Of a stretch of DNA of 50,812 nucleotides, positions 17,043 to 49,060 are shown one piece after another (the stretch's first letter is position 1; every line of letters begins with the position of its first letter). Both the position numbers and the translations under genes were made by a program. The notes beneath the pieces are model-generated. The model was not told where the DNA came from. It saw only the letters and a program-made list of their open reading frames with translations, and did no database searches. The stretch is from the NCBI GenBank assembly GCA_013360915.1, contig JABWAT010000018.1, positions 1 to 50,812 on the forward strand, given 5' to 3'. The stretch is from Bacteroidota bacterium. Lineage in GTDB: Bacteria > Bacteroidota > JABWAT01.

Positions 17043-17052
17043 GGAAATCCTT

Positions 17053-27987: not shown

Positions 27988-29460
27988 TCACGATTTCCCA
28001 TTCACCACGACATCAATTTTGTAACCTTTGAATCCGTAGAAAATGATGTACAGGTAGCAAAGGAGCGGAATGAAAAACGCATAGTGCAGCGTGATGGCAT
28101 CGGCAAACAAGCCCTGAACAAACGGAACAACCGCACCGCCGACAATGGCCATGCACAAAATGCCCGATCCCTGTGCGGTGTGTTTTCCCAATCCGTCAAT
28201 GGCGAGGGTGAAAATGGTCGGGAACATGATGGAGTTAAACAGACCGATGGCCAGAATGGACCACATGGCCACTGCACCGGTGGAAAGAATGGTGACCAAC
28301 AGAAGGGCAGAGACGATCGTGGCCATCACGCCAAGGGTGAAAGCCGGTTTGCCCTTGCCCAGCCAGAAACCGATCAGATTCACGCCGACAAAGACCAGCC
28401 AGGTGGCCGAATCGGTCCAGTTGCCGGTATTGAGGTAGGCCAGAATGATGGCACCCACCAGAACGGCCGCAATGTAAAGGGCGCGTGTGGTCTGGTTTTT
28501 TACATCAGAGAGCAGCATGGAACCCAGAAAACGACCAATCATGGCACCACCCCAGTACATCGAGACATATTTACCGGCTTCCTGTTCGGTAATGCCTGCG
28601 ATGTCGGGTTGGCTGAGGAAATTCACCAGATAGGAGCCGATGGAAACTTCACCACCCACATACACGAAAATGGCAACTGCACCGAGAACCAGATGTTTAT
28701 ATCCCCAGGCACTTGAAAAGGCATGATCATAATGTCCGCCTTCACCAGCCGATGACGGTTGTTCAGAGGGTTCAATTACGGGCAATTTGATAAACACGAA
28801 AGCAAGGGCAATGAGAAACAGAACCGAAGCAAGTAACAGGTAAGGACCCTGTACTGAAGCTGCTTCCATCAGACGCCAGGCTTCAAAATCGGCCGGAGGC
28901 ATGGCTGCAATTTCTTCGGTGGTCTTGGCAGCAGCCGACAGAATCAGAAGAGAGCCAAACCAGGGAGCCAGCGTGGTTCCCAGCGAATTAAACGACTGGG
29001 TCAGATTCAACCGGCTGGAAGCTGTTTCCGGGCGGCCGAGAATGGCCACATACGGATTGGCCGCCACCTGCAGAATGGTGATTCCCCCCGCCAGAATGAA
29101 CAAAGCAGTCAGAAACAACGGATAGGAAAGAAACATGGCGGCCGGAAAAAAGGCCAGACATCCGAGACCCGTGATGACGAGTCCAATGATGATTCCTGCT
29201 TTATACCCGGTTTTCTTCAGCAGCGCACCGGCCGGAAGAGAAACCACAAAATAGGCGATGAAAAAGCTCACCTGAATCAGGGAAGCCTGAGTGTAATTCA
29301 GGGTAAAAACCGCCTTCAGGTGAGGTACAAGAATATCATTCAGACAGGTGATGAATCCCCACATAAAAAACAGCGAGGTCAGGACTGTGAGGGCAAAATT
29401 ATAGTTCTGATTCGATGACTGATTGGAAGTCATAGTTGCGGAGGGAGCAGTGGAAGCCAT
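27988..29460 (-). CDS. MFS sugar transporter, FucP/GluP (FHS) family
   Basis: A 490-residue inner-membrane protein with about twelve transmembrane segments. The [11 protein letters not shown] motif in the first helix (~35-45), the [18 protein letters not shown]-type region after helix 4 and the [13 protein letters not shown]-like stretch ([11 protein letters not shown] here) are typical of the fucose/glucose-galactose:proton symporters. It should bring the monosaccharide released by this locus, probably glucose, into the cytosol. The start at 29460 has an AAGGA site. It lies 33 bases after the GH3 gene and closes the receptor-to-transporter gene run; two hairpin repeats follow. Confidence 0.88.
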
Positions 29461-29493: not shown

Positions 29494-31731
29494 TCAGTTG
29501 AGTAAAGTGATGGTCTCGGCCAGAGAACCGGTCATGACCCGGAAGGTTCCCGGATCGGTCCTTGGCTTGTAATCGGGTCCGGTATATTGAAAAGCATCGG
29601 GTGCCAGAATCAGGGTAACGGTCTGTGACTCACCCGGTTGCAGAAACACCTTTGCAAAGGCTTTCAGCTGGCGGTTGGGTCTCGAAACCAGGGCTGCTTC
29701 ATCCTGCAGATACAACAGGACCGATTCCTTACCTGCCACCGTTCCGGTGTTTTTCACAGTGACCGACACGGTCACGGTTTCTCCCTGCCTGAATTCCTTC
29801 TTATCCACCGTCAGCGCAGAGGTTTCGAACGTGGTGTAACTGAGACCATGTCCGAATGGATACAGCCATTGCGGAGACTGACCGTCATACACCTCGAGTG
29901 GTTTATAGTCATAGGTGGAATGTCCGTTCACCGATTTCGGATAAGTGAAAGGCAGTTTTCCATCCGGATTGTAGGTTCCGTAGACCACATCAGCAATGGC
30001 ACCTGCGCCTTCCATTCCGGGTAACATGCCCAGAATAACGGCACGGGACTGATCAGCGAGTTCAGTAATAACCCGCGGGCGTCCCTGAAGCATCAGAAGA
30101 ATGACGGGTTTACCGGTTTTAAACATGGCCTCTGCCAGCTCTTTCTGGGCCTTATCCAGATCGAGGGAGGACAAATTTCCCGGCGTTTCACAATACGCCT
30201 TCTCACCCAGACAAAGCAGAATGGCATCGGCCGAAGCGGCCTTTTTCACAGCCTCACCGATATTAACCGCCTGCTGAAAGGTTGTGCCTTCCGCATAAGT
30301 GATTTTTCCGCCTGACTGTTCCTGGAACGCCTCCAGAATGGTATGATTGGACTGATCGAGCAGCGCCTCATTATCACCCTGCCAGGTTCCCGTCCATCCG
30401 CCGTTCAGCACCTGAAGCAGGTTGGCCGTCGGTCCGGTGATAAGAAGACGGGTATCCTTTTTCAGCGGCAGCAGATTGTTTTCATTCTTTGCAAGAACGA
30501 TCGATTCCCTTGCAGCCTGCCGGTTGGCTTCGCGTGATTCAGCGGTGGCAAAACGGGCCTTCAGGTCGGGATTGGGATATGGATTGTCGAACAGACCAGA
30601 ATCGAACTTAACCTTAAGAATCCGGCTAACCGCTTCATCGATTCGTGATTCAGGAACCTCACCCGACCGGACAAGTCCGAGCAGAATGGTGTAGAAACTG
30701 AAATCATAAGGAACCATGCTCATATCAACACCGGCCATGACCGCCATTTTCACCGCTTCTTCGGGAGAGGCAGCCACTTTATCGCGGGTATACAGCCGTT
30801 TAATGTCTTCCCAATCGGAAACTGTAAATCCGGTAAAGCCAAGTTCGCCACGCAGAATGGTGTTGAGATAGTGTTTGTTTGCATGACCCGGCATACCATC
30901 CACTTCACCCGAATTGAGCATCACAGTCGGAGAGCCAGCCAGAACACCGGCCTGGAACGGAGGTAAAAACACATCACGCAGCAGTCGTTCACCAAAATGA
31001 GCCGGTGTGCGATCCTTGCCATTGAACGGCATGGAATAGCCGATATAGTGTTTCAGACAGGTGGGAGCCTTATCAGGCTGACTGTAATCATCGCCCTGAT
31101 GTCCGCGGATGTAGGCGGCACCCAACACTCCTGCCAGGTAAGGATCCTCGCCATAGGTTTCCCAGAAACGGGACCAGAGCGGTTGCCTGCCGACATCGAG
31201 CACCGGATAGAAATTCCAGGTCATTCCGCTGGCTTTCATTTCCACGGCGGTGATGGCTCCTTCTTTCTCAGCCAGTTCAGTATTGAAAGTCGCGGCCAGA
31301 TTAATGGCCTGCGGGAACAAGGTTCCGCCTTTGGTGTACGTGGTTCCGTGAATGGCATCAATTCCGTAAATCACGGGAATTTTTAACCGGCTTTTTTGGG
31401 CGGCATCCTGCACAGCCGTCATCATCTTATTCCAGGTTTCCAGATCCTGCGCCTTGTTGTATGGGGTGTTCAGGATGGACCCTACATGGTACTTCAGAAT
31501 GGCGGTATCCAATTTGGCCAGATCAATGGGAAATCCGTCATTGTCGGCTTCTGGTTTACCAATCACATCGAAGGTGACCTGGGTCATCTGACCGATCTTT
31601 TCTTCCAGTGTCATCCGGGATAGCAGATCGGCTACGCGGGTATCCTGGTTAGGGGCAGAACAACCTGCCATCACGCCGGTGGCGAGCAAAATTGTACTCA
31701 TCGCTTTCATTTTGATAAGGGTCCCACTCAT
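29494..31731 (-). CDS. GH3 beta-glucosidase lipoprotein
   Basis: A 745-residue lipoprotein (lipobox GVMAGC, Cys24) with GH3 N-terminal (~30-355), GH3 C-terminal (~395-600) and fibronectin type III-like (~660-730) domains. The nucleophile is D306 in FTVSDWEDI; KHY (227-229) is present. It differs clearly from the BglX-type GH3 at 22845, so the two probably split substrates by linkage or chain length; SDW-type members include enzymes active on laminari-, cello- and mixed-linkage oligosaccharides. ATG 31731 overlaps the stop of the GH2 gene as ATGA, suggesting coupling. A second ATG at 31710 would give a more compact lipoprotein signal, so the start is not certain. Confidence 0.9.
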   Translation of the reverse strand: MSGTLIKMKAMSTILLATGVMAGCSAPNQDTRVADLLSRMTLEEKIGQMTQVTFDVIGKPEADNDGFPIDLAKLDTAILKYHVGSILNTPYNKAQDLETWNKMMTAVQDAAQKSRLKIPVIYGIDAIHGTTYTKGGTLFPQAINLAATFNTELAEKEGAITAVEMKASGMTWNFYPVLDVGRQPLWSRFWETYGEDPYLAGVLGAAYIRGHQGDDYSQPDKAPTCLKHYIGYSMPFNGKDRTPAHFGERLLRDVFLPPFQAGVLAGSPTVMLNSGEVDGMPGHANKHYLNTILRGELGFTGFTVSDWEDIKRLYTRDKVAASPEEAVKMAVMAGVDMSMVPYDFSFYTILLGLVRSGEVPESRIDEAVSRILKVKFDSGLFDNPYPNPDLKARFATAESREANRQAARESIVLAKNENNLLPLKKDTRLLITGPTANLLQVLNGGWTGTWQGDNEALLDQSNHTILEAFQEQSGGKITYAEGTTFQQAVNIGEAVKKAASADAILLCLGEKAYCETPGNLSSLDLDKAQKELAEAMFKTGKPVILLMLQGRPRVITELADQSRAVILGMLPGMEGAGAIADVVYGTYNPDGKLPFTYPKSVNGHSTYDYKPLEVYDGQSPQWLYPFGHGLSYTTFETSALTVDKKEFRQGETVTVSVTVKNTGTVAGKESVLLYLQDEAALVSRPNRQLKAFAKVFLQPGESQTVTLILAPDAFQYTGPDYKPRTDPGTFRVMTGSLAETITLLN

Positions 31732-34070
31732 TTTAATAAAACCATTTTTCCAGTAGCAGTTTGTCCGCCGGCGACCAACCGGTACAAATACATGCCCGAG
31801 GCCAGGGGATATCGCTGCCTGCCGGCATCGAACAGGACCTGATGCTCACCGGCTGGCTGAAACTGGTTCACCAGGGTTCCCACCAGCCGACCTGTGTTGT
31901 CATAAATCTGCAGCGAGACCGGGGAACCCACCGGCAGTGAATATTCAATGATTGTGCCGGGATTGAACGGATTCGGATAATTCTGATTTAAACGGATCTG
32001 TCGGGGTTGTTCCGTTTCTTCCACAGCGGTATAAACTGGCTGGGTGGTGGCATACACAGAGTAACGCGTTTTCAGATTGGTCAGAACCGATTTGGCGGTG
32101 GTCCGGTCCATCTGATACAGACCCATGCTCTGAAATCCATCGGGAAGCGTATGGGTGTACCAGTCAAAAACGGTCCACCAGGTGGCAGCCATCAGCGCAT
32201 TGGTATCGATCACGGCACCGGTCCTGCTGCGGGCCGAATACGCTTCGAAAGCCGGAAACGTCCCGTTGAAAATGTTGGTCTGGACACCCTGTTCCTTGTG
32301 GTCTTCCCTCGACCAGCGGCCATACTCGGTATCCACAATCGGTTTTCCCGGGTGAAATTTCATGGCATTGGATAGGAATTTCTTCGTATCCTCGGTGATG
32401 GTTCCGATGGATCCGTAGAAAACGCCGTAATACATGGTCCAGCCGGCCACATCCACCGCATGCTGACTGTCATCATGCGGACCCGGGCGGTCCGAGGCGG
32501 CTGATTGGGTGGTTAACCGGCCATCAGGATAGAGGGTATCCAGCTCATTGTCCATGGCTTCCATGAAAATTTTACGGTTCTCCACATCGGCACATTCATT
32601 GGTCAGGCTCCAGAGCAGAATGGAAGGACGGTTATAATCTCTGAATACCATTTCCCGGAACATCTGTCTGTGGATCTGCCGGCGTTCATTCTGAATGATC
32701 CACGCCTCGGCATGATCGAACCACCAGACAGGTATTTCTTCCATCACGGCCAGACCGATCCGGTCGGTGTAGAGATAGGTAAACGGATGGTTCGGGTAAT
32801 GAGCCGTCCGCAGCATGGTGGCATTGGTCGATTTGGCAATATCCAGGTCGGTCTGAATCTGAATCACCGGCATGGAGCGACCATACACCGGATGATCTTC
32901 ATGCCGTGCCACCGATGCAAAAAAGGTGACGAGCGAATTCAGCAACACTTTATTTCCGTTGGTTTCGAAGGTGCGGATACCAAATTGGGTATAAACCGAA
33001 TCTCCCAGATCGGTTTTCACTTTCAGGATGTACAGATTCGGATATTTAGGGGACCAGATTCTGGGCGTCGGCACCTGAATGGTCGTCGTGAGAACCGAAA
33101 AGCCATCCTCTGTGAAACCGGGTTGTTCCGAAAATCCACCGGTCGCTACCGGACTGCCCGACACCAGATCGGCCGGGCGGCTGCTCAGCTTATTGGCCGG
33201 GGTTACCTTGGCTTCATAGACTTCCCAACTGATTTCGATGGGTTTTAACGGAAGGACCATGGCAGGATTGTCGAGAAAAACCTTCAGATCACAATTGCCC
33301 TGCAGGTCGAGGGGTTTGATATCGGCTCTGGCAATAAAAATTCCCGGGCGGAATTCGATCATTACATCATGAATGATGCCGGTGTAATTAAACCAGTCCG
33401 GTTTTGTGTAGGGGACGATGTCCTTCCGTTTTCCCCATTCCGGATTATCCACCCGGACGGCGATGGTGTTTGTACCCGACACAATGTGGGGAGACACCAG
33501 AAAGGCAAAGGGCGTGAATCCGCCTTCGTGATAGCCAACATGGGTGCCATTCACCCAGACATCGGCCACATAATTCACCGACAGAAACTTTAAAATGACT
33601 TTCTGATTCACCAACGAATCGGGAACAGTGAAAGTCCGGCGGTACCAGACGCCATCTTCATAATACTCGGGCCGTTGCTGGTAGCCATTCATGGTGTTTT
33701 CGACGGCTGGCAGAGTCTTGGTTTCCCATGCAGAATCATCGAATTCAGGCAGGTGAGCGCCGCCTCCTTCTGTTTCCAGTGCGTCAATCGCTGTCGGAGT
33801 CCGGTCGAGCAGGGTAAGTGCATCGTTGGCGGCAAACCGCCATTTTTTCCAGACACCATTCAGGGAAATGGTGGGCCGGAGCTGTTCTTCGAAATTGGGA
33901 AAGATCCGTCCGTTCTGGACCGGAATGGTCACCGACTCCTGAGCGGAGAGGGAAAAAGTGGCTTTAAGTGTGGCTTCCTGTGCACTGGCTGAAGCAACCA
34001 TCGCCAGCCCAGACAGGCTCAACAAACCGGTCAAACGTCCAAACCGGTTAACGAACGAGTCCTTTTTCAT
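31728..34070 (-). CDS. GH2 family glycoside hydrolase with T9SS sorting domain
   Basis: A 780-residue secreted enzyme: signal peptide (1-30, ASAQ), GH2 sugar-binding jelly roll (~60-240), Ig-like domain (~245-370), TIM barrel (~372-670) with acid/base E492 in SLTNEC and nucleophile E582 in VDTEYG, and a T9SS sorting domain (~695-780, YPNPFNPGT). GH2 covers beta-galactosidases, -glucuronidases and -mannosidases as well as other exo-enzymes; within this gene set the specificity is open. A T9SS-exported GH2 is notable because most PUL-encoded GH2 enzymes are periplasmic. The ATG at 34070 opens the signal peptide; the stop overlaps the next gene as ATGA. Confidence 0.88.
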   Translation of the reverse strand: MKKDSFVNRFGRLTGLLSLSGLAMVASASAQEATLKATFSLSAQESVTIPVQNGRIFPNFEEQLRPTISLNGVWKKWRFAANDALTLLDRTPTAIDALETEGGGAHLPEFDDSAWETKTLPAVENTMNGYQQRPEYYEDGVWYRRTFTVPDSLVNQKVILKFLSVNYVADVWVNGTHVGYHEGGFTPFAFLVSPHIVSGTNTIAVRVDNPEWGKRKDIVPYTKPDWFNYTGIIHDVMIEFRPGIFIARADIKPLDLQGNCDLKVFLDNPAMVLPLKPIEISWEVYEAKVTPANKLSSRPADLVSGSPVATGGFSEQPGFTEDGFSVLTTTIQVPTPRIWSPKYPNLYILKVKTDLGDSVYTQFGIRTFETNGNKVLLNSLVTFFASVARHEDHPVYGRSMPVIQIQTDLDIAKSTNATMLRTAHYPNHPFTYLYTDRIGLAVMEEIPVWWFDHAEAWIIQNERRQIHRQMFREMVFRDYNRPSILLWSLTNECADVENRKIFMEAMDNELDTLYPDGRLTTQSAASDRPGPHDDSQHAVDVAGWTMYYGVFYGSIGTITEDTKKFLSNAMKFHPGKPIVDTEYGRWSREDHKEQGVQTNIFNGTFPAFEAYSARSRTGAVIDTNALMAATWWTVFDWYTHTLPDGFQSMGLYQMDRTTAKSVLTNLKTRYSVYATTQPVYTAVEETEQPRQIRLNQNYPNPFNPGTIIEYSLPVGSPVSLQIYDNTGRLVGTLVNQFQPAGEHQVLFDAGRQRYPLASGMYLYRLVAGGQTATGKMVLLK

Positions 34071-34081
34071 AGTCAAACCTG

Positions 34082-35908
34082 TTATTTAATAAGTAGCATT
34101 GGTTTTACCGCGGTGAAAGTCCCCGATTGTAACCGGTAGAAATACACACCGCTGGCAAGGCCAGAGGAATTGAAGGGAAGGTTGTATACACCGGCTGCCT
34201 GCCATCCGTCTGCCAGCGTATCAATCAGACGGCCGGTTACATCGAATACCTGCAAGTTGACCTGGCTGTTCTCTGGTAACTGATACCTGATCACGGTATT
34301 TGGATTGAACGGATTCGGATAGTTTCCGTGCAGAATGGGAGTCATGGGATTACCGGTTTCATCTTCCACACTGGTCAGAGTTCCGGCATAATCGATCTGA
34401 AGTCCGGAAAGAATGGTCTCACCGCGGTTCGCGGAAAAATGGATATCCAGCACGCCATCGGCCACCGGAACGTTATTGAACGTGTGAGTCCAGGCTTTGG
34501 AATTTCCCACCCGGTCATACAGGTCAATGTCGGATTCTTTAAAATCGGCCGATTCCACTGTTACATCGAACACCCGCTGATTCCGGGCCTGATGTACTTT
34601 CTCGGCTGCCATCAGCGTCACGTGATACTTCCCTTCCGGAACCTTCACACGGTATAAAACAATAGCCGACTGATCGGTCTGATACACCGAATCGAGGTCG
34701 GTGTTCCCAATGGCGTTGGTGTATGCACGCTGACGGCCATCGGCATAACCGAATGGCTGGGTGAAGGAATAATTACGGTCAGCCTGAAACCCGTTCGATG
34801 CTTTCAGGGATCCCACATCAATTTTCAGAGGAAAGAGATTACCACCGGTTTTAACAGCTTGTTTATTGGTCAGACTCATTTTGTTCGGCGTCGTGAACCG
34901 GTCGGTGACGTTCTGAACAATCACGTTATAGGTTTTGGCCGGATCGGGCATGGTGGTCACCAGCGTGACAATGGATGGATCGATGGGGTGCAGGGTGGCC
35001 GATTTAACGGTTAACCCTGGGATTACATAATTCCCTTTGGTTTCGGCGGTGGTCTTCGTCACCCATTCACTGAATCGTACCGTGATAACCGTATCCTGCT
35101 GTGTCAGTTCAAGAACCGAAGGGGCAGCTGTATCGCGGTAGCCGGTCACCGTCGGATTGGTCAGACTCAGCACCAGATAACCATTCTGAAATGTCACATT
35201 TTCGGTGATGAAATCGGAATTGTTTCCGTTCCAGGTATGGGTTCCTTTTTCCCACCGGGATTCATCGAAGCTGTCGAATGGATCTTCCCAGAGAAACGAA
35301 AAATTATTTCCCTCGCCTGTGGTTCCGGTTCCGGGAGTGTAGGAGTAGACTTTAATCCAGTCATACCAGGAAAAGGCTGGCAGGGAGGCGGCCGAAAAGG
35401 TTCCCACCCAATCGGGATATGCCGGATTCCAGGTATTCATCATCAGCTTCTGGGCACGGGTAAGGGTCTGAATATGACTGGCGGTTTGTTTTCTGACCAT
35501 GACACCATCAATGTACCAGGACACGTACGTGGGAGTCCACTCAATGGCATAGGTATGAAAATCGGCCGCGGGATCGAAGGAGGTAAACACCGAACTGACG
35601 TGATTGACCTGATTGGGGGTGATGGTGTTAAACTGTACGGAATTGCGGTACCGTCCGACAATTTCAATATCAATTTCGTTCCACTTTCCAGAGGTCCATG
35701 GATCCTGTGGCGTTCCATCGAAATACGTAAAAAAAGTGGAGAGCACTCCCTCAGCCGGGGTGGCTTTCATCCGGATTTCGAAACGCCCATACAGAAAGGC
35801 TTCTTTGGTACGGTATTCGGCACCTTTGAAGTCCTTTGAGAAGACAGGAACGGCCGGAAAGAATCCGGCCGTAAGGAAAAGAAGAAGGATGAATGATTTC
35901 CGAGTCAT
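34082..35908 (-). CDS. Circularly permuted GH16 beta-glucanase (lichenase type) with malectin-like domain and T9SS tail
   Basis: A 608-residue secreted enzyme. After the signal peptide (1-24) the GH16 domain begins directly at KDFKGAEYRTKE, with catalytic EIDIE (78-82; nucleophile E78, acid/base E82), and runs to WYDWIKVYSY (181-190). The strand pair that normally starts a lichenase (WEDPFDSFDESRWEKG, then NVTFQNGYLVLSLT) comes afterwards, at 207-250. This order matches the natural 1,3-1,4-beta-glucanase of Fibrobacter succinogenes and is the reverse of Bacillus lichenases. An SbsA-like Ig domain (~260-350), a malectin-like domain (~365-510) and a T9SS sorting domain (~525-608, YPNPFNPNT) follow. 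Likely a surface endo-enzyme for mixed-linkage or beta-1,3-glucan. Its start overlaps the PorV-like stop (TGATG). Confidence 0.92.
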   Translation of the reverse strand: MTRKSFILLLFLTAGFFPAVPVFSKDFKGAEYRTKEAFLYGRFEIRMKATPAEGVLSTFFTYFDGTPQDPWTSGKWNEIDIEIVGRYRNSVQFNTITPNQVNHVSSVFTSFDPAADFHTYAIEWTPTYVSWYIDGVMVRKQTASHIQTLTRAQKLMMNTWNPAYPDWVGTFSAASLPAFSWYDWIKVYSYTPGTGTTGEGNNFSFLWEDPFDSFDESRWEKGTHTWNGNNSDFITENVTFQNGYLVLSLTNPTVTGYRDTAAPSVLELTQQDTVITVRFSEWVTKTTAETKGNYVIPGLTVKSATLHPIDPSIVTLVTTMPDPAKTYNVIVQNVTDRFTTPNKMSLTNKQAVKTGGNLFPLKIDVGSLKASNGFQADRNYSFTQPFGYADGRQRAYTNAIGNTDLDSVYQTDQSAIVLYRVKVPEGKYHVTLMAAEKVHQARNQRVFDVTVESADFKESDIDLYDRVGNSKAWTHTFNNVPVADGVLDIHFSANRGETILSGLQIDYAGTLTSVEDETGNPMTPILHGNYPNPFNPNTVIRYQLPENSQVNLQVFDVTGRLIDTLADGWQAAGVYNLPFNSSGLASGVYFYRLQSGTFTAVKPMLLIK

Positions 35909-36933
35909 CAGAATGAGAGACCGAGTGTAACTTTTTGCGTGTTATTTAATCGTCCGAAGTCAGCAAAGGCATAATTCAGGTGAACATAAATGTTCCCGGT
36001 AATCATCTGTCTTACTCCTGCGCCAAAGGTAAACCCTTCTTCGGTATCAGTCAGGAACAATGATTTATATCCGCCCCTGAGAAACAGAAACTCATTGTAA
36101 CTGTATTCGCCTCCGAGATTGATACTTTCGTAGTCATTGTTGGGGTGTGCAGCATCGGCAGCCACCGTTAACCTGGTGTAATCTCCCTTGAAAGCATCCC
36201 AGCTCACGCCCATTCTGAAGGTCAGAGGAAGCGGAAATTCATCTGTATTGATATTGGTTGGTAACTTATCATTATTCCCCGAGTTATCCGGATCCGGGTC
36301 ATACAGGGCCAGCAGAGATCTTCCTGTTAATTTCATATCGGTCCCGAAGTTGGTTATCGACATACCAAGTACCATATTATCAAACGGAGTGATGTATTTT
36401 ACCCCGATATCGATGGCCACTGCCATGGCACTGGTATTCCATACGGACTGATAAACCAATTTCGGATTAAATCCAATATCAAATTTATCGGTCAGTGAGA
36501 CAGCATAAGCCAGGCTCATCACGGCATCCATTGCACTGAATAACTGACCATTTCCATCAGGTTCATCAATGGTGGTTACTTCCATGTCCCCGTATTCTGA
36601 AGCTGTATAACTGAATCCGATGGTACCTGCACCACCCATGTTATAAGTGGCCGCAAAATAATTATAGTTTACATCCGCAAGCCACGAGGTATGATCGAAC
36701 AGCAATTGGATCCCTTCCAACCTTGCCAGACCAGACGGGTTCCAGTACATGGCGGATGGATCATCGGCCTTTGCGACAAAAGCTGAACCCATTCCGGTTC
36801 CGCTTGCCCCCATGCTGATACCCAGAAACGGAGCGGCTGTACCTCCCCGTTTTGAAATAACATCTGAATATTGTGCCAGAACCGGAACTGAGGCCAGAAC
36901 AGCCAGAAACGTCAGTGTAAAAATCTTTTTCAT
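35908..36933 (-). CDS. PorV/PorQ family outer-membrane beta-barrel protein
   Basis: A 341-residue protein with a signal peptide (1-20, VLAQ) and a beta-barrel pattern ending in a C-terminal aromatic (LGLSF), as for outer-membrane proteins. The GISMGASGTGMGSAFVAKADDPSAMYWNPSGLA segment (41-73) is the hallmark of the PorV/PorQ (FadL-like) family. PorV shuttles T9SS cargo from the SprA translocon to the surface-attachment machinery. A paralogue inside a polysaccharide locus, immediately after a T9SS protein and before GH16 and GH2 cargo, may serve these exports specifically; that is inference. The start at 36933 has GAAAAGAG upstream; its stop overlaps the GH16 start. Confidence 0.87.
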   Translation of the reverse strand: MKKIFTLTFLAVLASVPVLAQYSDVISKRGGTAAPFLGISMGASGTGMGSAFVAKADDPSAMYWNPSGLARLEGIQLLFDHTSWLADVNYNYFAATYNMGGAGTIGFSYTASEYGDMEVTTIDEPDGNGQLFSAMDAVMSLAYAVSLTDKFDIGFNPKLVYQSVWNTSAMAVAIDIGVKYITPFDNMVLGMSITNFGTDMKLTGRSLLALYDPDPDNSGNNDKLPTNINTDEFPLPLTFRMGVSWDAFKGDYTRLTVAADAAHPNNDYESINLGGEYSYNEFLFLRGGYKSLFLTDTEEGFTFGAGVRQMITGNIYVHLNYAFADFGRLNNTQKVTLGLSF

Positions 36934-36951
36934 GTTCAACTCTTTTCCTGC

Positions 36952-39900
36952 TTATTTGATCAGGGCAAATTTTCCAATTTTCTCACCAACACCCGGAGCA
37001 TCCACATGATAGATATATACTCCGAAGGCCACATCGGTTCCGTCTTCCGACAGCAGGTTCCAGCGCAGTGAACCATCGGCAGAATCAGAATCCTTTTCGA
37101 GAGTCTTCACCAGTGTGCCTGCCATGTTGTAAATCCGGATTGTACATTTCATCGGCAACCGGGTAAAGGCGATTCTTCTTTCTCCGCGACCCTGGATTCC
37201 TTCCAGGTTTCTGGGTTCCCAGATATTTCCTCCAATGTAGGGATTCGGAACCACGCGTATATTATCCAGTTCACTTTTTGCTTTTGAGGCACTCATTCCC
37301 TGAGATTCAGTGGTAAAGGTGAAGGTATCTCCCTCGAAGAATTTCTTCCGGAATTTGACACGAAAAACATCGCCGGCGCCTGGCACCTTTTTAAGACCAT
37401 CTTCACCGGGAAATCCGTACGCAACAATACATGGCCACCGCTCATTGGCTCCGGTTTTAATGCCGTTTCTATACTCTACAATAAAAATCCGGTCTTCACC
37501 CAACTTTAATTCATTCCGGTTCAGATCTGCAAGTTCTGTGATCACCTCCATACGCTGACCTGTATTCACATTGAACACTCGGAATTTGATGGGAATCTGT
37601 TTGAACTTAAAGGCCACATTGCTCGTCATGGAAGTCCCGACAACGGTATCGGAAAATTCAATCCGGTAATCTGAACTGAAATACATGTATTTACCAGCAT
37701 ACTTGGGTCCCGCAAGTGAAGTGGTCGGCGTACGTTGTGCCAGCATGGTGGGAAGGTTTGGTAAATCCCCTGCTATCCATCGGCTTGCCGAATCGATCAG
37801 GGCAGTTGACGTGTCATTTAATGCTTCAAGTACCAGCCCGTCAAACGGTAAAGAGGACGCGGGTTGACCTGGATAAGCCACCTGGTTTTTTGCAATCTTT
37901 TTGCCAAGAGAATCGACCACTCCATTCATCAAACGGGTTACAATCGCCCCATCGGTCACATAATTGGGCGAAGTCCCTGTTGATTGAAACTTCACTGTGT
38001 AAATGGCATTTTCCTTAATTTCAGATGGATTAAAAACTGTGACTTTCAGTGAGCCGGTGCCCGTTGCATTAACCGATTGCATGGTTGCACCCGCAGGAAC
38101 ATATCCGGCTGCTGGTGCATTTGGTGTCACCACTGCACAATTCTGATCGATGAACTGAATGGTTCCCACAAGGTCTGTGGTTATAATTTTGGTACATTCT
38201 GCAGGCTGAAGTTTAATATCCACCGTATCGTTATAAAATCCTTCATCATAGGATACCACTGCATAGTAATAAGTACGGCCATTTATCACATCGTTGTCGA
38301 TGTAAGAATGTTGCAGGCCGGTGTCATCACCACGCCAGAAAGCTGCACCGTTAATCCCAACCGGATCCGGACCAATAATTCCATCCACTTTATCAAATTG
38401 AGCAATTGGTTTCCAGAATTTCGGCTGCCCCTTCGAATCAGTAATAACTTTGATATCCTGGAACTCGGGTTCTGTGCTACGGTAAATCAGGTATCCTTCA
38501 AAATCCTTTTTGGGACCTTGTTTGGGGTCATTATTCTGATAACCAAGTACCGGATCCGTTGAATCCTCGGCACGTGTGTCCCACAGCAATTTCACTTGTT
38601 TGTCACCAGCTATGGCGGTCAGCCTGGGTTTAAGAGGTGGTTTAGTGAAATTGTAGTCATTGTTGTAAATAAACTGAACGGTCTTTTTGTTAAAGACCAG
38701 ATCACTGTAATCTTCCGCAAAAACCAATCCCATCGAAAACCGTTCACGCCCGAAACCAACCAGATTGATTCCGCTTCTGAGTAAAAAGGGACCAGAGGAA
38801 AAAACAATCTGAATGTTAGAGTTCTGAACAGAGGTATCAAAGCGCGCACTGCTCATCCGGGCCCAGATAACATCGTCATTACGTGGCCACAAATCCCTGT
38901 TGGTTTTCCCATCCAGTTTTTCAATGGCCACAGCGGTCAGACCGATCTGATCTGATTCATCTTTATCGGTTTTCTCGAAATTGGGTTCACCCACGGTCGG
39001 AAGACCATCCCCTTCACCGAGGTCAGGAAAATGCTCTTTAATTTTTCCAAGCACCTCATCATAGGGTTCATCAAAAGGTCCGGCACCATCGGCTCCCACA
39101 TCGTTTAGTAGGGCTTCACCGATCTGGGTGGTCTGATCCCAATCCCAGACTCCGTTTCCGTTTTCATCAACAAAACTTTTCCAGTCCTTGTCGTTGTCGA
39201 TTCCGTCATCACGACGCTCATCAATCAGTGGTACTCCATTAACGTCGGTATCATTATCATTGTTTATTCCATCGCTTGAATTACCGGGTGATTCCAGATA
39301 CGCATACCCGTAAACGCCGAGCTTGACATCGACCCGACCGGGAATTTTTCCATCTTTATCGAATCCGTAGGTCAGATCCAGGTTTTCATCATAACTGGCC
39401 CAGTCATCGGCATTATCGGCATCTCCGCCGAGTCCGGTATCTGTGTAAAAGCCGAAATAGGTCGAAGCATAATCTTCATCGGCCAGGTTGACAATATCAT
39501 AATGCCAGAAAATGATGTCTTCTGCCAGCACGTGGGACCATTGAAATCCGCGTGTTTCCACCCGGAGTCCCAATCCTTTCCGGATATTGGGATTGTACCA
39601 TTGAACCGGGTCTGCCGGATTGGTGGGTATATCAGCCTTTATCGGGTAAAAACCATAGGACGGGAATGTCCATTCAGCATCCTTGGAGTCATCGGTAACG
39701 AAAAAGGTTTCCAATTCGGCATTGAAAATGTTCCGGCCAAAATAGCCATACCACTGACCGTTAAATGCAGTTGTCAATCCCAACGCCTCTGGCCATGCAG
39801 CAGGCCACGATCCGGTCCGGTTGCTCATTGCCGGATCGGAGGAAGACGGATTGGCATAATTGGGAACCGGTGTCCATCCCCATGGTTCATTAACCAGACT

Positions 39901-40272
39901 GGGTGGTACACCCAACGGCCGATCCATTTCTTCACGATAGTAAGTTTCAACGGGTGTGATTTTATTATTTGGTGCTGGTTTGCGGGGTGCTATTGCCTCG
40001 GCAGCAACCAACATACAAATTCCATCCACATAATTGATTCCGGTTCCCTTTGGCCATTCACCCGATGGGGAAAAGGGCCATTGAGCCACTTCGCTGTTAT
40101 TGTAAAACAACGTTCTGACCAGGTTCCCATCCAGAATACTCTCTCTCCGGTAAATCTGGGAACCCAACTGATCATTCCGTAACCGGTTAATTTCTGGCCA
40201 CACCGACTGACCGGTTACCAGTTCAGGAACCAGACACAGGGTTCCGATTAATACTGCATGCGTGATTTTCAT
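36952..40272 (-). CDS. Large T9SS-secreted protein with calcium-type acidic repeats, partner of the TonB receptor
   Basis: A 1106-residue secreted protein without a recognised catalytic domain. Seen: signal peptide (1-21, VTGQ); a long aromatic-rich beta region; an acidic Asp/Asn stretch (~330-390) with DGINND, DGIDNDKD and DENGNGVWD, the kind of loops that bind calcium; an FN3-like segment (~575-715); and a C-terminal sorting domain (~1010-1106) in the variant form VVPNPY, ending IGKFALIK. It lies 14 bases after the TonB receptor and 18 bases before the PorV-like gene. It occupies the place where a Bacteroidales PUL would have susD, so a surface glycan-binding role beside the receptor is a reasonable but untested guess. 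Confidence 0.7.
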   Translation of the reverse strand: MKITHAVLIGTLCLVPELVTGQSVWPEINRLRNDQLGSQIYRRESILDGNLVRTLFYNNSEVAQWPFSPSGEWPKGTGINYVDGICMLVAAEAIAPRKPAPNNKITPVETYYREEMDRPLGVPPSLVNEPWGWTPVPNYANPSSSDPAMSNRTGSWPAAWPEALGLTTAFNGQWYGYFGRNIFNAELETFFVTDDSKDAEWTFPSYGFYPIKADIPTNPADPVQWYNPNIRKGLGLRVETRGFQWSHVLAEDIIFWHYDIVNLADEDYASTYFGFYTDTGLGGDADNADDWASYDENLDLTYGFDKDGKIPGRVDVKLGVYGYAYLESPGNSSDGINNDNDTDVNGVPLIDERRDDGIDNDKDWKSFVDENGNGVWDWDQTTQIGEALLNDVGADGAGPFDEPYDEVLGKIKEHFPDLGEGDGLPTVGEPNFEKTDKDESDQIGLTAVAIEKLDGKTNRDLWPRNDDVIWARMSSARFDTSVQNSNIQIVFSSGPFLLRSGINLVGFGRERFSMGLVFAEDYSDLVFNKKTVQFIYNNDYNFTKPPLKPRLTAIAGDKQVKLLWDTRAEDSTDPVLGYQNNDPKQGPKKDFEGYLIYRSTEPEFQDIKVITDSKGQPKFWKPIAQFDKVDGIIGPDPVGINGAAFWRGDDTGLQHSYIDNDVINGRTYYYAVVSYDEGFYNDTVDIKLQPAECTKIITTDLVGTIQFIDQNCAVVTPNAPAAGYVPAGATMQSVNATGTGSLKVTVFNPSEIKENAIYTVKFQSTGTSPNYVTDGAIVTRLMNGVVDSLGKKIAKNQVAYPGQPASSLPFDGLVLEALNDTSTALIDSASRWIAGDLPNLPTMLAQRTPTTSLAGPKYAGKYMYFSSDYRIEFSDTVVGTSMTSNVAFKFKQIPIKFRVFNVNTGQRMEVITELADLNRNELKLGEDRIFIVEYRNGIKTGANERWPCIVAYGFPGEDGLKKVPGAGDVFRVKFRKKFFEGDTFTFTTESQGMSASKAKSELDNIRVVPNPYIGGNIWEPRNLEGIQGRGERRIAFTRLPMKCTIRIYNMAGTLVKTLEKDSDSADGSLRWNLLSEDGTDVAFGVYIYHVDAPGVGEKIGKFALIK

Positions 40273-40286
40273 GGATAACCTGTTGC

Positions 40287-42926
40287 TTAAAGTGAAAAAT
40301 TAACGCCGACTTTGATATTTCTTGGTCCCGAGAACCGTGAGGGATCAGAGATGTAATCATCGAATACTTTATCTCCTACCAGTTCTCTCCATTGCTGTTC
40401 ACCCAATAAATCGCGGGTAGCACGCCCCGTAGATGGGAAAATGCCATACTCATTTTTGATTCCGAAAACGTTATAAATGAGTACGTATGCACCAATGTTG
40501 GTCCCGGCAATTTCAAATTGACGTTCTGCTCTCAGATCAAAATTCCAGGTGGTTGGTTTGGTGCCTTCATTCAGAAACCGCGAACGTTCAAGAACGACAT
40601 CGGGTGTATATGGGAATCCCGAACCATAACCGATATTGGCACTTACCAGTAAATCGGTCGGATTTCCAGCTGTGAGAATCAGGTTAACGGTCTGCCGCTG
40701 ATCCCAATCCAATGGACGAACCTGCTTTTCTGGTTCCAGATTGGATTGGTAATAATAAATGGCAGAATATGGATCAGAAGCATTACCTCTTGCATTCTGA
40801 TAGGTGTAATCAAGGGAAATACTGAACAGATCAGACATCCGCCGGTCAAGAGAGACGGTCAGTCCCCGTACATTTCCATAATCTTTGTTAATGAACCTTG
40901 AATAGTAACTGCCATAGTAGGTATTGACGATTTCAACACCAATCAGGTTGCGGATGTCACGGTAATACATATTCGCATCCAGTTTGATATCGTATGGCAA
41001 AACCTGCTGAAGACCCAGTTCATACATGACCGTTTTTTGTGCCTTCAGATCACCATTTCCGTAACTGATATTGGTTTGATTCGTGTAAACCGGTAAATCA
41101 TTATTCTGATAGATATTTTCAAACGGAGGAATCTGGAAAAAATGTCCGTAAGAAAAGTGAATAACCCCCTCGGCTGTTATGGGAAAAGAAACACCCAGCC
41201 GCGGACTGATCTGATATTGAGATTTGGCGTCTTTGCTTGGCCCGCTACCCGGGAAAAAGGGGCTTTGATCCGGGTTCCGAAAATCAGGAACGACTTTGCT
41301 ATTAGGCTGGAAGTATTCAAACCGAAGCCCAAGATTCACAATCATGATATCGTATTCGATTTTATCCTGAATGTAGGCTGAAAACTCCCAGGGTATTTTC
41401 TGATAGCCACTGTTTCCATCTGTGTGAAGGGGTGAATATTCAAAAGTGATCGAATCTGGAAGCGGATCTGCATCCAATTCAAATTCACGGGAAAACAGGT
41501 AACTGTTTCGTGTAAAAAGGTTATGATGCCGGGCTTCAATTCCGGCTCCCAGCTTGTGAACATCATTTAATTGTGCCGTGATTTGCCATTTGGTGATCAT
41601 GGTATTGGTAAACCGTTTATACCGGCCATTATCGGTCCCGCCGGTACTGAATGTATAATTTGATGGCGGATCGCCATATCCGTTTCCGATAAACTTGGGA
41701 GAAAACGGATCTTCATATGCATATCCATGGTAGTTGTAATTCAACCAGGTCAATGAGGTCACGTGAAAAATCTTATCGGTTGGAATATGGGTGAATTGAA
41801 GACTGCTTACCAGACTGTTTTTGAAGTTCTTCATTCGTCCATCCGGACTGTATTTTTTTACATGTGAATATCCCTGACTGTACGTTTGTTCATACAGGGT
41901 ATTCAAAGACACTTTATAATTGGGTGACTGCCAGGTCAGTTTTCCGTTCCATGAATAGAGTTCAAAAGGTGCCATCGGAACCCAGGAAGAATCACCGGTG
42001 GGTCTGCCTGTTGGATTGGTGAACGGATCGGCATCTTTCGGCCGGTAAACTCGTCTGCCGTAAAAAGAGCCCTGATCAAAATAATAACGACCGGTCGTGA
42101 AGTAGCTCATGCCGGGAATAAGTGAGATGGGACCACTGACCGATCCCTGAAAATCTCTTGATTGAAGACCAATATTGTCTATGTTCGGATAAAGGGGATC
42201 GGTACTGTAATAACTTCCGACATTTGAGGAAAACCAGGTACTATGATTGGTAACGGCACCATCATTTGATACCACATTGATAATACCAGACATCGCCTGC
42301 CCGTATTCTGCATTAAAAGTACCCGAAATCACTTCAAGCTGACGGACTGAACTGTTCTGAACTGAAAGGCCTTCACCCGACGAAAAAGCATCAGTAATCG
42401 GGACCCCATCCAATAAATAGGCCACTTCATTTCTCCGTCCGCCACGGAAGTGCCCATCCACCACGCCTGCCTGCATATTGACCACCTGGCCAATGTTTTC
42501 AACCGGCATGGAACGCAATTCTGATGCACTGACGGTAACAGCAGAAGAAGTCAAATCTTTCTGAATCAATGGTGCTTCTGCTTCCACCACAATTTCTTCA
42601 CCGAGCATAATATCTTCAGAATTCATCAGAATATTCTGAACTGCAGTCAGGTTATTTTTTATAATAACTTTTGCAACCCTTGATTTCTGATATCCCACCG
42701 CGCTGGCGACTACCGTATATTCCCCAACCGGAATGTTGTAAATGGTGTATTTTCCATCCAGGTCGGCCGCACCACCCAGAAAGGTCCCTTCTATCATCAC
42801 ATTGGCCCCGATGATGGGTTCACCGGTTTTTTTATCCTTAACCACCCCGGTCAGTTTTCCAACCGATAAAGCGGAAACCGTTGCGGCAAAAAGAAACATC
42901 GTCAGTACAAGCAGAAGTCGTTTCAT
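40287..42926 (-). CDS. TonB-dependent outer-membrane receptor with carboxypeptidase-regulatory-like domain
   Basis: An 879-residue receptor: signal peptide (1-19), CarboxypepD_reg-like beta-sandwich (~23-110, GKLTGVVKDKKTGEPI and DLDGKYTIYNIPVGEYTV), plug domain (~118-240, RSMPVENIGQVV, GGRRNEVAYLLDGVPI, NAEYGQAMSGIINVV) and a 22-strand-type barrel ending in VNFSL. It is shorter than SusC and has no SusD neighbour, so it belongs to the wider receptor family. It probably imports oligosaccharides cut by the surface enzymes encoded downstream. No clear Shine-Dalgarno sequence precedes the ATG (CTGGTATAACCC), and a strong terminator lies only 24 bases upstream, so expression depends on read-through or on a promoter within that gap. 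Confidence 0.92.
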   Translation of the reverse strand: MKRLLLVLTMFLFAATVSALSVGKLTGVVKDKKTGEPIIGANVMIEGTFLGGAADLDGKYTIYNIPVGEYTVVASAVGYQKSRVAKVIIKNNLTAVQNILMNSEDIMLGEEIVVEAEAPLIQKDLTSSAVTVSASELRSMPVENIGQVVNMQAGVVDGHFRGGRRNEVAYLLDGVPITDAFSSGEGLSVQNSSVRQLEVISGTFNAEYGQAMSGIINVVSNDGAVTNHSTWFSSNVGSYYSTDPLYPNIDNIGLQSRDFQGSVSGPISLIPGMSYFTTGRYYFDQGSFYGRRVYRPKDADPFTNPTGRPTGDSSWVPMAPFELYSWNGKLTWQSPNYKVSLNTLYEQTYSQGYSHVKKYSPDGRMKNFKNSLVSSLQFTHIPTDKIFHVTSLTWLNYNYHGYAYEDPFSPKFIGNGYGDPPSNYTFSTGGTDNGRYKRFTNTMITKWQITAQLNDVHKLGAGIEARHHNLFTRNSYLFSREFELDADPLPDSITFEYSPLHTDGNSGYQKIPWEFSAYIQDKIEYDIMIVNLGLRFEYFQPNSKVVPDFRNPDQSPFFPGSGPSKDAKSQYQISPRLGVSFPITAEGVIHFSYGHFFQIPPFENIYQNNDLPVYTNQTNISYGNGDLKAQKTVMYELGLQQVLPYDIKLDANMYYRDIRNLIGVEIVNTYYGSYYSRFINKDYGNVRGLTVSLDRRMSDLFSISLDYTYQNARGNASDPYSAIYYYQSNLEPEKQVRPLDWDQRQTVNLILTAGNPTDLLVSANIGYGSGFPYTPDVVLERSRFLNEGTKPTTWNFDLRAERQFEIAGTNIGAYVLIYNVFGIKNEYGIFPSTGRATRDLLGEQQWRELVGDKVFDDYISDPSRFSGPRNIKVGVNFSL

Positions 42927-42996: not shown

Positions 42997-45621
42997 TTAC
43001 TTAATCAGCGTCATTTTTCTGACGGCTGTGTAGCCATCAGCCATCATGCGTACGAAATAAATACCACTCGGAAGCGAGGCACCGTTGAAATGAACGGTGT
43101 ACTCACCTTGTGGCTTCTGTCCGTTGAATAAGGTGGACACTTCCTTACCCAGCACATCATAAACCTTCAGACTGACATTGCCCGCCTGTTTCATGCTGAA
43201 ACGGATGGCAGTGGTCGGGTTGAACGGATTCGGATAGTTCTGGCTCAGGTTAAAGGAACGGGCGGTTTCTCCCTTTCCATCCACGCTGGTGAAGAACACA
43301 CTGGAGTTGTTTCCGATCCAGGTATAATTCCAGGAAGAAACATTATTCCAGGCATTGTCTTCATTCGATTGGCTCCAGCGCATTCCACCCTGACGGGCCA
43401 GATTGGCATCACCATCATTGACCAGCCAGTCAAAAGCGATCATCATACCGTCTTCCGGTGTGAAGAGTGCATCGCCTTCATGCAGGGCTGCGATGGCTTC
43501 GAAAGAAATGGACCATTCGAAAATGTATCCGGTTTCTGTCTGAATCCATTCGTAGTTGTCATGAGCCTGACGGGCCACCGTTGCACCATTGATGTCATCC
43601 GACACACGGTGAGCATTCATGCGGAAGTGATAGTCAGGGGTGGCACCACGACGGTAACCGGTGTGATCCTTGCCTTTGTAATCATACAGACCAAAGACCA
43701 CATCCGGAGCATCCTGCTCATAGGAAGCCTTGGTGGTATCGACGAAATAGTAATCGTCATATACCTGCATGGCCATGTAGAGATGGGTACTGGAAACAGC
43801 CGCCCAGGCCTTGAACCATAAGTCGGTATCACCATCATGCGGCCAGGTACCCGGGTTAATGATGGTACCAGTGTTATCAGATGATTTCACTTCCCAGGCA
43901 GGAACCGAAGCCCATTCGCTCAGATTACCATCGGCCACGAAGCTTTCTGGAGCACCCAGCCATACAACCGGTACACCTTTTCCAGTGTTCTGAACAGCAG
44001 ATTCGGTGGCAGCAACAGCTCCTACGTTACCTGCTTTGTCGGTGGCATTGATGGCATAGTAAATATCATGAGTGGCATTGTTGATCGGGCTGTTTATAAA
44101 ATGCTCGGCAGCCTGAAGACCTTCAGCCTTGTTCGGGGTAAGAGTAAATACCAGCGGATCGGTCAGATCGGTGATCGGGTATCCACTATAGTAGATGGAA
44201 TATTTTTCCTTCTCTTCACCAGGAACGTCATCCCAGATCAGCAGGTTCTTGTATTCCCCGGGAAGGGCCAGCAGTCCGGTCGGAGCAGCAGGTGCCTCGG
44301 TATCGTTTTCTGCAAATCCGCTTGGAGTAATCAGGTCGAGCAGGAAGGATCCTTCGGCCACCACATCGGCACCAAACGGCTGGGTTCCATCATTGGTAAT
44401 GATGATTTCGAACTGGAACCCCTTTACGGCGTTGATGTCAAAGGTTTTGTTGCCATTGCTCTTGTTGTTAAATCCGGGATCTCCGGGACGCATGTCACCC
44501 CAGGGTTTCGAGGATTCTTCCAGCGGGAAGTACAAAAATTGCCAGTCACCAGCTTTGCTGATGTCAAAATTCGGAATGGCAACCCATTCTTCATTATCAC
44601 CATCATAAATTTCAAAACGGGTGATCACACGGCCTTCCAGTCCCGGAGGAACCAGATTTTTCAGATAGAAGCCAACTGCCGACTTTGTTGAAAGGTCAAC
44701 AGGGGTTTCCAGCATGTGACGGAAAGAAGCATAGCCTCCCCAGTTTTGTGAACCGATCACTTTATAATCCACTTTCAGAGCGCCGGTACCTTCAACGGTA
44801 TCTGCATTCTCATCACTGAAATCAAGTTTCAGAAGCGGTGCAGCCACGCCATCCCAATCCATGACAAATTTGTCATAGTATGCAGAAACCGATGCGGTCT
44901 GATCAAAGGTCATGAGCGGCTCAAATGCCTGACCCAGGATCTGAATTTTATCCATCAGAAACGTTCCGGTTGCAGCAGGCGGATTTTCATTCTTTCCATC
45001 AGTGATGTACACAATGGCAAACTCGTAGCCGACGATGTCCCATGGCTGGAATTCACCATCCCCATTACCAAATTGGGTTGAAAAACCATCAGGATTTACA
45101 GAATTGTGCTCAAGAGGCACAATGTACTGGCGCCAGGTTCCGGCAGGTTCCTGAGCAATGGTACCGAAGTTTTTAAGGAACAGGTCTTCACCCGTATCGG
45201 TATCCTTCTGCTCTTTGACTTTGAATTCAAAGTTGACATCACCGGGCTGGTCTTTAACAGCCGGTGTGACCACTTTTACCCAGAAGCTCAGGTATTTACC
45301 CGATGACAGGTCATATTTGGCCGAATCACCCAGGTTTTCCAGATCGTTCTTGTGCAAACGAACCACATAGCCTCCCCATCCATCGAAAGCTTCGACACGG
45401 TAGTCGATTTTCAGGGCTTCCTCGCCATCCAATGCATCATCGCTGGCAGAAAGATTAAAAAGAGAACCAGGTCCGTTGGTAAAGAATCCGTTATTCAGAC
45501 GATTCGGGAAATAAGTGGTATCGTTTCCGACGCCACCCTCGAACGATTCCCACACCCATTGGGCCTGGGCAGAAACAGCCGTGAGAAGGACGGCTGCGAG
45601 CAGGGTTAGCAACTTTTTCAT
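42997..45621 (-). CDS. T9SS-secreted multi-domain carbohydrate-binding protein
   Basis: An 874-residue secreted protein: signal peptide (1-21, AQAQ), two jelly-roll modules resembling carbohydrate-binding domains (~22-220, WESFEGGVGND and ALKIDYRVEAFDGWGGYV; ~230-440, ALKVDYKVIGSQNWGGYA), an FN3-like linker (~450-540), a CBM9/DOMON-like domain (~560-770, DGNLSEWASVPAW, then LYMAMQVYDDYYF) and a T9SS sorting domain (~790-874, NYPNPFNPTT). No catalytic domain is seen. It probably captures polysaccharide at the cell surface for the receptor and enzymes encoded downstream. The start at 45621 is set by a GGAG that overlaps the upstream in-frame ATG at 45633. A strong terminator follows, so it is a transcript on its own or the first part of an attenuated operon. 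Confidence 0.82.
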   Translation of the reverse strand: MKKLLTLLAAVLLTAVSAQAQWVWESFEGGVGNDTTYFPNRLNNGFFTNGPGSLFNLSASDDALDGEEALKIDYRVEAFDGWGGYVVRLHKNDLENLGDSAKYDLSSGKYLSFWVKVVTPAVKDQPGDVNFEFKVKEQKDTDTGEDLFLKNFGTIAQEPAGTWRQYIVPLEHNSVNPDGFSTQFGNGDGEFQPWDIVGYEFAIVYITDGKNENPPAATGTFLMDKIQILGQAFEPLMTFDQTASVSAYYDKFVMDWDGVAAPLLKLDFSDENADTVEGTGALKVDYKVIGSQNWGGYASFRHMLETPVDLSTKSAVGFYLKNLVPPGLEGRVITRFEIYDGDNEEWVAIPNFDISKAGDWQFLYFPLEESSKPWGDMRPGDPGFNNKSNGNKTFDINAVKGFQFEIIITNDGTQPFGADVVAEGSFLLDLITPSGFAENDTEAPAAPTGLLALPGEYKNLLIWDDVPGEEKEKYSIYYSGYPITDLTDPLVFTLTPNKAEGLQAAEHFINSPINNATHDIYYAINATDKAGNVGAVAATESAVQNTGKGVPVVWLGAPESFVADGNLSEWASVPAWEVKSSDNTGTIINPGTWPHDGDTDLWFKAWAAVSSTHLYMAMQVYDDYYFVDTTKASYEQDAPDVVFGLYDYKGKDHTGYRRGATPDYHFRMNAHRVSDDINGATVARQAHDNYEWIQTETGYIFEWSISFEAIAALHEGDALFTPEDGMMIAFDWLVNDGDANLARQGGMRWSQSNEDNAWNNVSSWNYTWIGNNSSVFFTSVDGKGETARSFNLSQNYPNPFNPTTAIRFSMKQAGNVSLKVYDVLGKEVSTLFNGQKPQGEYTVHFNGASLPSGIYFVRMMADGYTAVRKMTLIK

Positions 45622-45685
45622 GTTGATCTCCATGATTGGTTTAGAGTTGATTGCGATTTTGCGATATCCGGTCCTGTCTGAAAAC

Positions 45686-49043: not shown

Positions 49044-49060
49044 TCCGGCAGGAGGACTTT

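Follow-up and report, generated by a model that had tools for sequence, protein, structure and literature searches.

Among natural circular permutants, the glucanase of the rumen bacterium Fibrobacter is a standard example, and the GH16 gene at 34082-35908 on the reverse strand of the window (the whole stretch of 50,812 nucleotides analysed here, from a Bacteroidota bacterium) raises the question of whether the same rearranged strand order is real in this genome, how far it extends beyond Fibrobacter and what the enzyme does. Taken as a whole, the protein is best explained, and we hold this with considerable confidence, as a secreted, T9SS-displayed endo-beta-1,3-1,4-glucanase (lichenase) whose GH16 domain is permuted at the F. 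succinogenes loop, with the malectin and locus roles described below and likely a single origin. Its modules follow the order signal peptide, permuted GH16, Ig-like, malectin (CBM57-type) and T9SS tail:

34082..35908, minus strand: permuted GH16 gene, 608 aa (ORF and Pfam; AlphaFold2 model, mean pLDDT 89.4)
35837..35908, minus strand: signal peptide, residues 1-24 (sequence; helix 2-15 in the model)
35333..35836, minus strand: GH16 core, residues 25-192, first instead of second (Pfam 27-163; alignment to 1mve)
35300..35332, minus strand: new linker from the old C-terminus to the old N-terminus, residues ~193-203, GTGTTGEGN (alignment A1)
35159..35299, minus strand: strands that open ordinary lichenases, residues 204-250, here C-terminal in the domain (alignments; model strands)
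34844..35146, minus strand: Ig-like domain, residues ~255-355 (model strands 265-350; Big_5 in 2 of 27 relatives)
34412..34795, minus strand: malectin (CBM57-type), residues 372-499 (PF11721, 56.4 bits, cut-off 23)
34106..34321, minus strand: T9SS C-terminal sorting tail, residues 530-601 (PF18962, 36.7 bits, cut-off 27; TIGR04183 above cut-off)

Strand order and fold of the GH16 domain

The GH16 core opens with KDFKGAEYRTKE (residues 25-36) directly after the signal peptide, where the sequence-only reading had placed the start of the catalytic domain, and residues 207-250, which that reading had taken for displaced strands, lie exactly at 35290-35159. The moved strands read NFSFLWEDPFDSFDESRWEKG ... 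VTFQNGYLVLSLT (residues 202-250, at 35305-35159). The family profile PF00722 matches residues 27-163 with 101 bits (cut-off 22) and is entered only at profile position 29. The catalytic residues E78, D80 and E82 fall within WNEIDIE, and the E/D/E triad is invariant in alignment A1, in which the termini of the domain lie in the loop before the K-x-F/Y-x-G-A-E strand; in nearly all relatives, too, the signal peptide stands directly ahead of a GH16 domain that starts at this loop. The malectin-like and T9SS modules named earlier were recovered by Pfam, the former in 27/27 aligned relatives. The proposed Ig module corresponds to a strand-rich region of the model, which drew no Pfam match in the window protein itself and is probably a Big_5 domain. 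The genome encodes SprA (SprA_N) and a PorU sortase; the protein has both the sorting domain expected of a T9SS cargo and, in its own genome, the machinery for export.

In its native order, the domain aligned in one stretch to the F. succinogenes glucanase (1mve/3axd; residues 22-252, E 3e-54 to 3e-55, 191 bits, ~40% identity over 230 residues) and to the engineered permutants 1cpm/1cpn (28-251), whereas only residues 26-188 aligned to wild-type Bacillus lichenase (113 bits), covering just two thirds of that enzyme. With the blocks swapped back, the picture was reversed: the de-permuted query matched Bacillus 2ayh without a break over 8-220 (133.5 bits), and the alignment to the Fibrobacter glucanase was split in two. 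As judged from the alignments, such a reversal cannot be attained by chance, and it bears out the proposal that the strands opening ordinary lichenases come here after the last strand.

From an input of 27 full-length relatives, AlphaFold2 returned a model in which the blocks of the catalytic domain have pLDDT values between 80 and 98 and strands of the GH16 domain run at 203-209, 219-221, 231-233, 238-241 and 244-250. In the superposition on lichenases that had been suggested as a check, nine Fibrobacter glucanase chains topped the Foldseek ranking against the PDB, followed by 1cpm and 1cpn. The TM score was 0.94 to 1zm1_B (target-normalised, rmsd 1.7, 40% identity), 0.89-0.90 to 1cpm/1cpn and 0.65-0.67 to wild-type Bacillus enzymes, the last values being low because a sequential alignment has to omit the moved strands. 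Given the score to 1zm1, residues 203-250 are predicted to complete the GH16 sandwich, and residues 1-24 form a predicted helix and signal peptide, so that a second N-terminal strand pair is absent; thus neither arrangement named beforehand as contrary to permutation, residues 200-250 outside the sandwich or another strand pair before residue 25, appears in the model. Sequence and model together give good support to the fold and the chain order, and the permuted domain is predicted to keep the full jelly roll and the E-x-D-x-E retaining machinery.

Substrate and gene neighbourhood

Licheninase (EC 3.2.1.73) hydrolyses beta-1,4 bonds beside beta-1,3 bonds in mixed-linkage glucan, and the sequence of the window protein points to this activity, on beta-glucan of the barley and lichen type, with E78 as the nucleophile and E82 as the acid/base assigned by homology. 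The licheninase subfamily GH16_21 is marked by short loops, a Phe at the -1 platform and a closer kinship to licheninases than to laminarinases or XTHs; the best hits and the tree agree with a place in it, and the FFTY motif is present in the domain. Its match to the NCBIfam BglS equivalog reaches 148.6 bits, below the cut-off of 300. The position of Fibrobacter Trp203 is taken by His224 (alignment A1), so the product pattern or affinity may differ. This His, together with the GH30, GH2, two GH3 and two GH5 genes nearby, would also suit an enzyme with another main substrate, such as a beta-1,3- or beta-1,6-containing algal or fungal glucan; we consider this unlikely, as the closest solved structures, by sequence and by Foldseek, are all 1,3-1,4-glucanases, well ahead of laminarinases, and the permuted clade groups in the tree with lichenases, apart from laminarinase-like paralogues. 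From the GH2 and GH30 neighbours and the two GH5 genes, it seems that the region at large acts on more than a single beta-glycan.

The putative lichenase gene is the fifth in a run of eight co-directional genes spaced -4 to 70 nt apart, standing between the PorV-like and GH2 genes in the following order:

42997..45633, minus strand: CBM9-like protein with T9SS tail (PF06452, PF18962)
40287..42926, minus strand: TonB-dependent receptor with carboxypeptidase-regulatory domain (PF13715, PF00593, PF07715)
36952..40272, minus strand: 1106-aa protein with weak T9SS-type tail (profile search)
35908..36939, minus strand: PorV/PorQ-family outer-membrane protein (NF033709, 205.8 bits, cut-off 90)
31728..34076, minus strand: GH2 enzyme with T9SS tail (profile matches)
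29494..31731, minus strand: GH3 beta-glucosidase-like lipoprotein (profile matches)
27988..29460, minus strand: GluP glucose/galactose MFS transporter (TIGR01272, 362 bits, cut-off 203)

The stop of the PorV/PorQ-family gene overlaps the GH16 start, and its product may serve the T9SS-tailed enzymes as a partner in secretion or attachment that is specific to this locus. The TonB receptor scored 61.5 against the SusC model, far below the cut-off of 368, and the neighbouring genes scanned in the window gave no SusD-type Pfam match; the SusC/SusD pair that marks a classical polysaccharide utilisation locus is not recognisable in this run. For the 1106-aa protein, Pfam yields no family besides the weak C-terminal sorting-like match, and in place of SusD it may act as the partner of the TonB receptor at the cell surface. 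The neighbour run of TonB receptor, PorV-like protein, GH16, GH2, GH3 and GluP is tight and largely conserved. In 75 permuted loci with enough flank, a PorV-like homologue lies upstream of the permuted gene in 56, from several phyla, a homologue of the 1106-aa protein lies upstream of the PorV-like and permuted GH16 genes in 50, and a GH3 homologue is found nearby in 50, all counts being lower bounds because the flanks were only 4 kb.

From this arrangement we infer a beta-glucan uptake locus without a recognisable SusD. The T9SS tail would fix the GH16 enzyme to the cell exterior, where it would cleave mixed-linkage glucan that is probably held by the malectin domain; going by the gene run, the oligosaccharides set free would be taken through the neighbouring TonB receptor, the GH3 lipoprotein would then cut them to glucose in the periplasm, and the glucose would enter through GluP.

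The genes upstream of the run encode an SSF transporter and, divergently, a histidine kinase and a sigma-54 response regulator (47538-50521, plus strand) that may regulate the locus; downstream follow an esterase, GH30, a second GH3, a GH63-like enzyme and the two GH5 genes. A glycan-degradation region holds two adjacent arylsulfotransferase (ASST) domain proteins (14187-19521, minus strand), each ending in a T9SS tail, one of which also has Kre9/KNH-like and Ig domains. The two frames share 140 bases (17053-17192), and one of the starts has therefore probably been set wrongly.

Distribution and origin of the permuted form

Among the 84,980 species genomes scanned, 445 relatives were found, and an explicit block-order test on the best 80 of these, all from GTDB genomes, found the permuted order in 80/80. 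By record name, these best 80 of 445 belong to Ignavibacteriota (37), Bacteroidota (17), Fidelibacterota (12), KSB1 (5) and Calditrichota (3), the few others having no phylum name or a doubtful label. The window architecture recurs in 27/27 aligned relatives and nearly all of the best 80 are built alike, so the same modules usually accompany the permuted form across phyla; L100 and L119 are variants without malectin. Among 98 distinct permuted domains, E-x-D-x-E is present in all (97 by pattern, one reading EIDYE), and the gap between the two BLAST blocks is 10-16 aa in 96.

Within the window's phylum, 35 of 394 genomes carry the permuted form (37 full-length matches), while lichenase-like genes of ordinary order numbered only four there at E < 1e-20. 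In the phylum of a Fidelibacterota (Marinimicrobia) genome, 35 of 100 genomes have a match at E <= 1e-15; all span the query in permuted order, and several are neighbouring pairs. The search of viral contigs gave no match. Most likely, the lichenase usually present in Ignavibacteria-type Bacteroidota, Fidelibacterota (Marinimicrobia), KSB1 and Calditrichota is now the permuted form. The proposal that it exists outside Fibrobacter in a form compatible with surface display was correct yet understated: the picture of a Fibrobacter rarity recurring elsewhere is too small, and the permuted form is widespread in several little-studied phyla.

Some variants were noted by eye, namely a LamG-like N-terminal region in L030, L033 and L035 and, in L099 of Fidelibacterota, an apparent fusion of the permuted GH16 to a GH5-like domain. 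The contig of L035 (G279) carries permuted and ordinary-order lichenase-like genes within ~8 kb and would permit a direct comparison of both forms inside one organism. Adjacent permuted pairs occur in G418, G439, G451, G455, G474, G478 and G492, all genomes of the phylum to which the Fidelibacterota genome belongs, one member of ~610 aa and the other of ~370 aa, the latter too short for malectin. The Caldisericaceae (L095) and Deltaproteobacteria (L118) labels were left out of the evidence for spread because they may be misnamed MAGs; the L095 genome, of about 4.0 Mb, has four GH16 matches.

For the origin, a tree was built on core columns only, excluding the moved block, with 44 permuted rows including Fibrobacter. 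All 44 fell on one side of a branch (support 98/96) and were united in 98% of bootstrap trees with L038 included; the row nearest to Fibrobacter is this L038, whose genome belongs to the same phylum as the window. The branches of Fibrobacter and of the linking L038 are long, and without L038, L039 and L043 support is 74/18. Both rows have a Trp at the Trp203 position (alignment A1), which together with the shared cut loop and linker position adds weight to one event. Two independent permutations at the same permissive loop, in Fibrobacter and in the window clade, strike us as improbable: the engineered permutants 1cpm and 1cpn, cut at that loop, fold and crystallise, so the loop tolerates cutting, and without L038 Fibrobacter is a long branch whose grouping with Bacillus is not rejected (p-AU 0.21), but the identical cut loop, the similar linker, the colinearity over 230 residues, the shared Trp and the single branch obtained with L038 all argue against this. 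One permutation event, Fibrobacter included, is likely, not proven, and the Fibrobacter enzyme is most likely one divergent branch of the permuted clade. Of the earlier suggestion that the permuted form spread or arose outside Fibrobacter, its presence there stands and an independent rise is disfavoured.

Phylum labels are strongly clustered within the permuted clade (9 changes, compared with a mean of 21 after shuffling), as expected for mostly vertical descent with some transfer. A broader proposal, to which we give about even chances, is that the permuted lichenase is an old default form of the Fibrobacter-Chlorobi-Bacteroidetes assemblage, derived from one event and retained in at least four phyla, where it would be the surface-exposed part of a conserved beta-glucan uptake locus that lacks SusD; the Fibrobacter enzyme would then be no more than a divergent branch.

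A possible duplication footprint, GY-S/R/T-G after the last strand of several relatives, resembling the N-terminal K-x-Y-K-G, was unsupported: the profile-against-shuffle test gave p < 0.05 in only 5/23 relatives, one of them at another offset, and p 0.43 for Fibrobacter, whose last residues are approximate. In the fetched loci, no protein carried either block twice, as a duplication intermediate would. That the order is an assembly or gene-fusion artefact hiding an ordinary lichenase is scarcely credible in view of the single open frame, the same order in 80/80 best relatives from independent assemblies and the high-confidence AlphaFold2 model of the permuted chain.

Significance and comparison with known systems

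The Fibrobacter permutant gains hundreds of candidate kin, the best 80 of which are all permuted, and these form a data set for asking how often permutation happens, when it took place and whether selection favours it or it is neutral. From the conserved locus one can also predict how beta-glucan is taken up in little-known phyla that have no recognisable SusC/SusD pair, and the clade is a source of many new candidate lichenases for enzymology.

The open-access papers found on natural glucanase permutation cite the Fibrobacter enzyme, and we found no census of permuted lichenases in the open-access literature, although we claim no priority; neither 'permut' nor 'Fibrobacter' occurs in the text of the GH16 subfamily paper (PMC6827312). 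Melioribacter roseus grows on lichenan (PMC3534657); this growth was set aside as support, its lichenase Mros0976 not being linkable here to the permuted form.

The F. succinogenes 1,3-1,4-beta-D-glucanase (1mve, 1zm1, 3axd), described as naturally circularly permuted (Tsai et al. 2003, as cited in PMC2395249), shares with the window protein the strand order, cut loop, linker position and catalytic motif; unlike that enzyme, the window protein has malectin and T9SS modules, a TonB/GH3 locus and His in place of Trp203. The Bacillus permutants 1cpm/1cpn have the same new termini but are laboratory constructs, with ~35% identity to the window domain. Ordinary lichenases of GH16 subfamily 21 (Bacillus 2ayh and others; PMC6827312) are alike in fold, motif and probable substrate and differ in having the ordinary strand order. 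The closest parallel in gene content considered here is the mixed-linkage glucan locus of B. ovatus (PMC8612152), with its surface GH16, TonB-dependent transporter and periplasmic GH3; in the window the GH16 is permuted, and the neighbours, among which Pfam recognises no SusD, instead comprise a PorV-like protein, the 1106-aa protein and proteins with T9SS tails.
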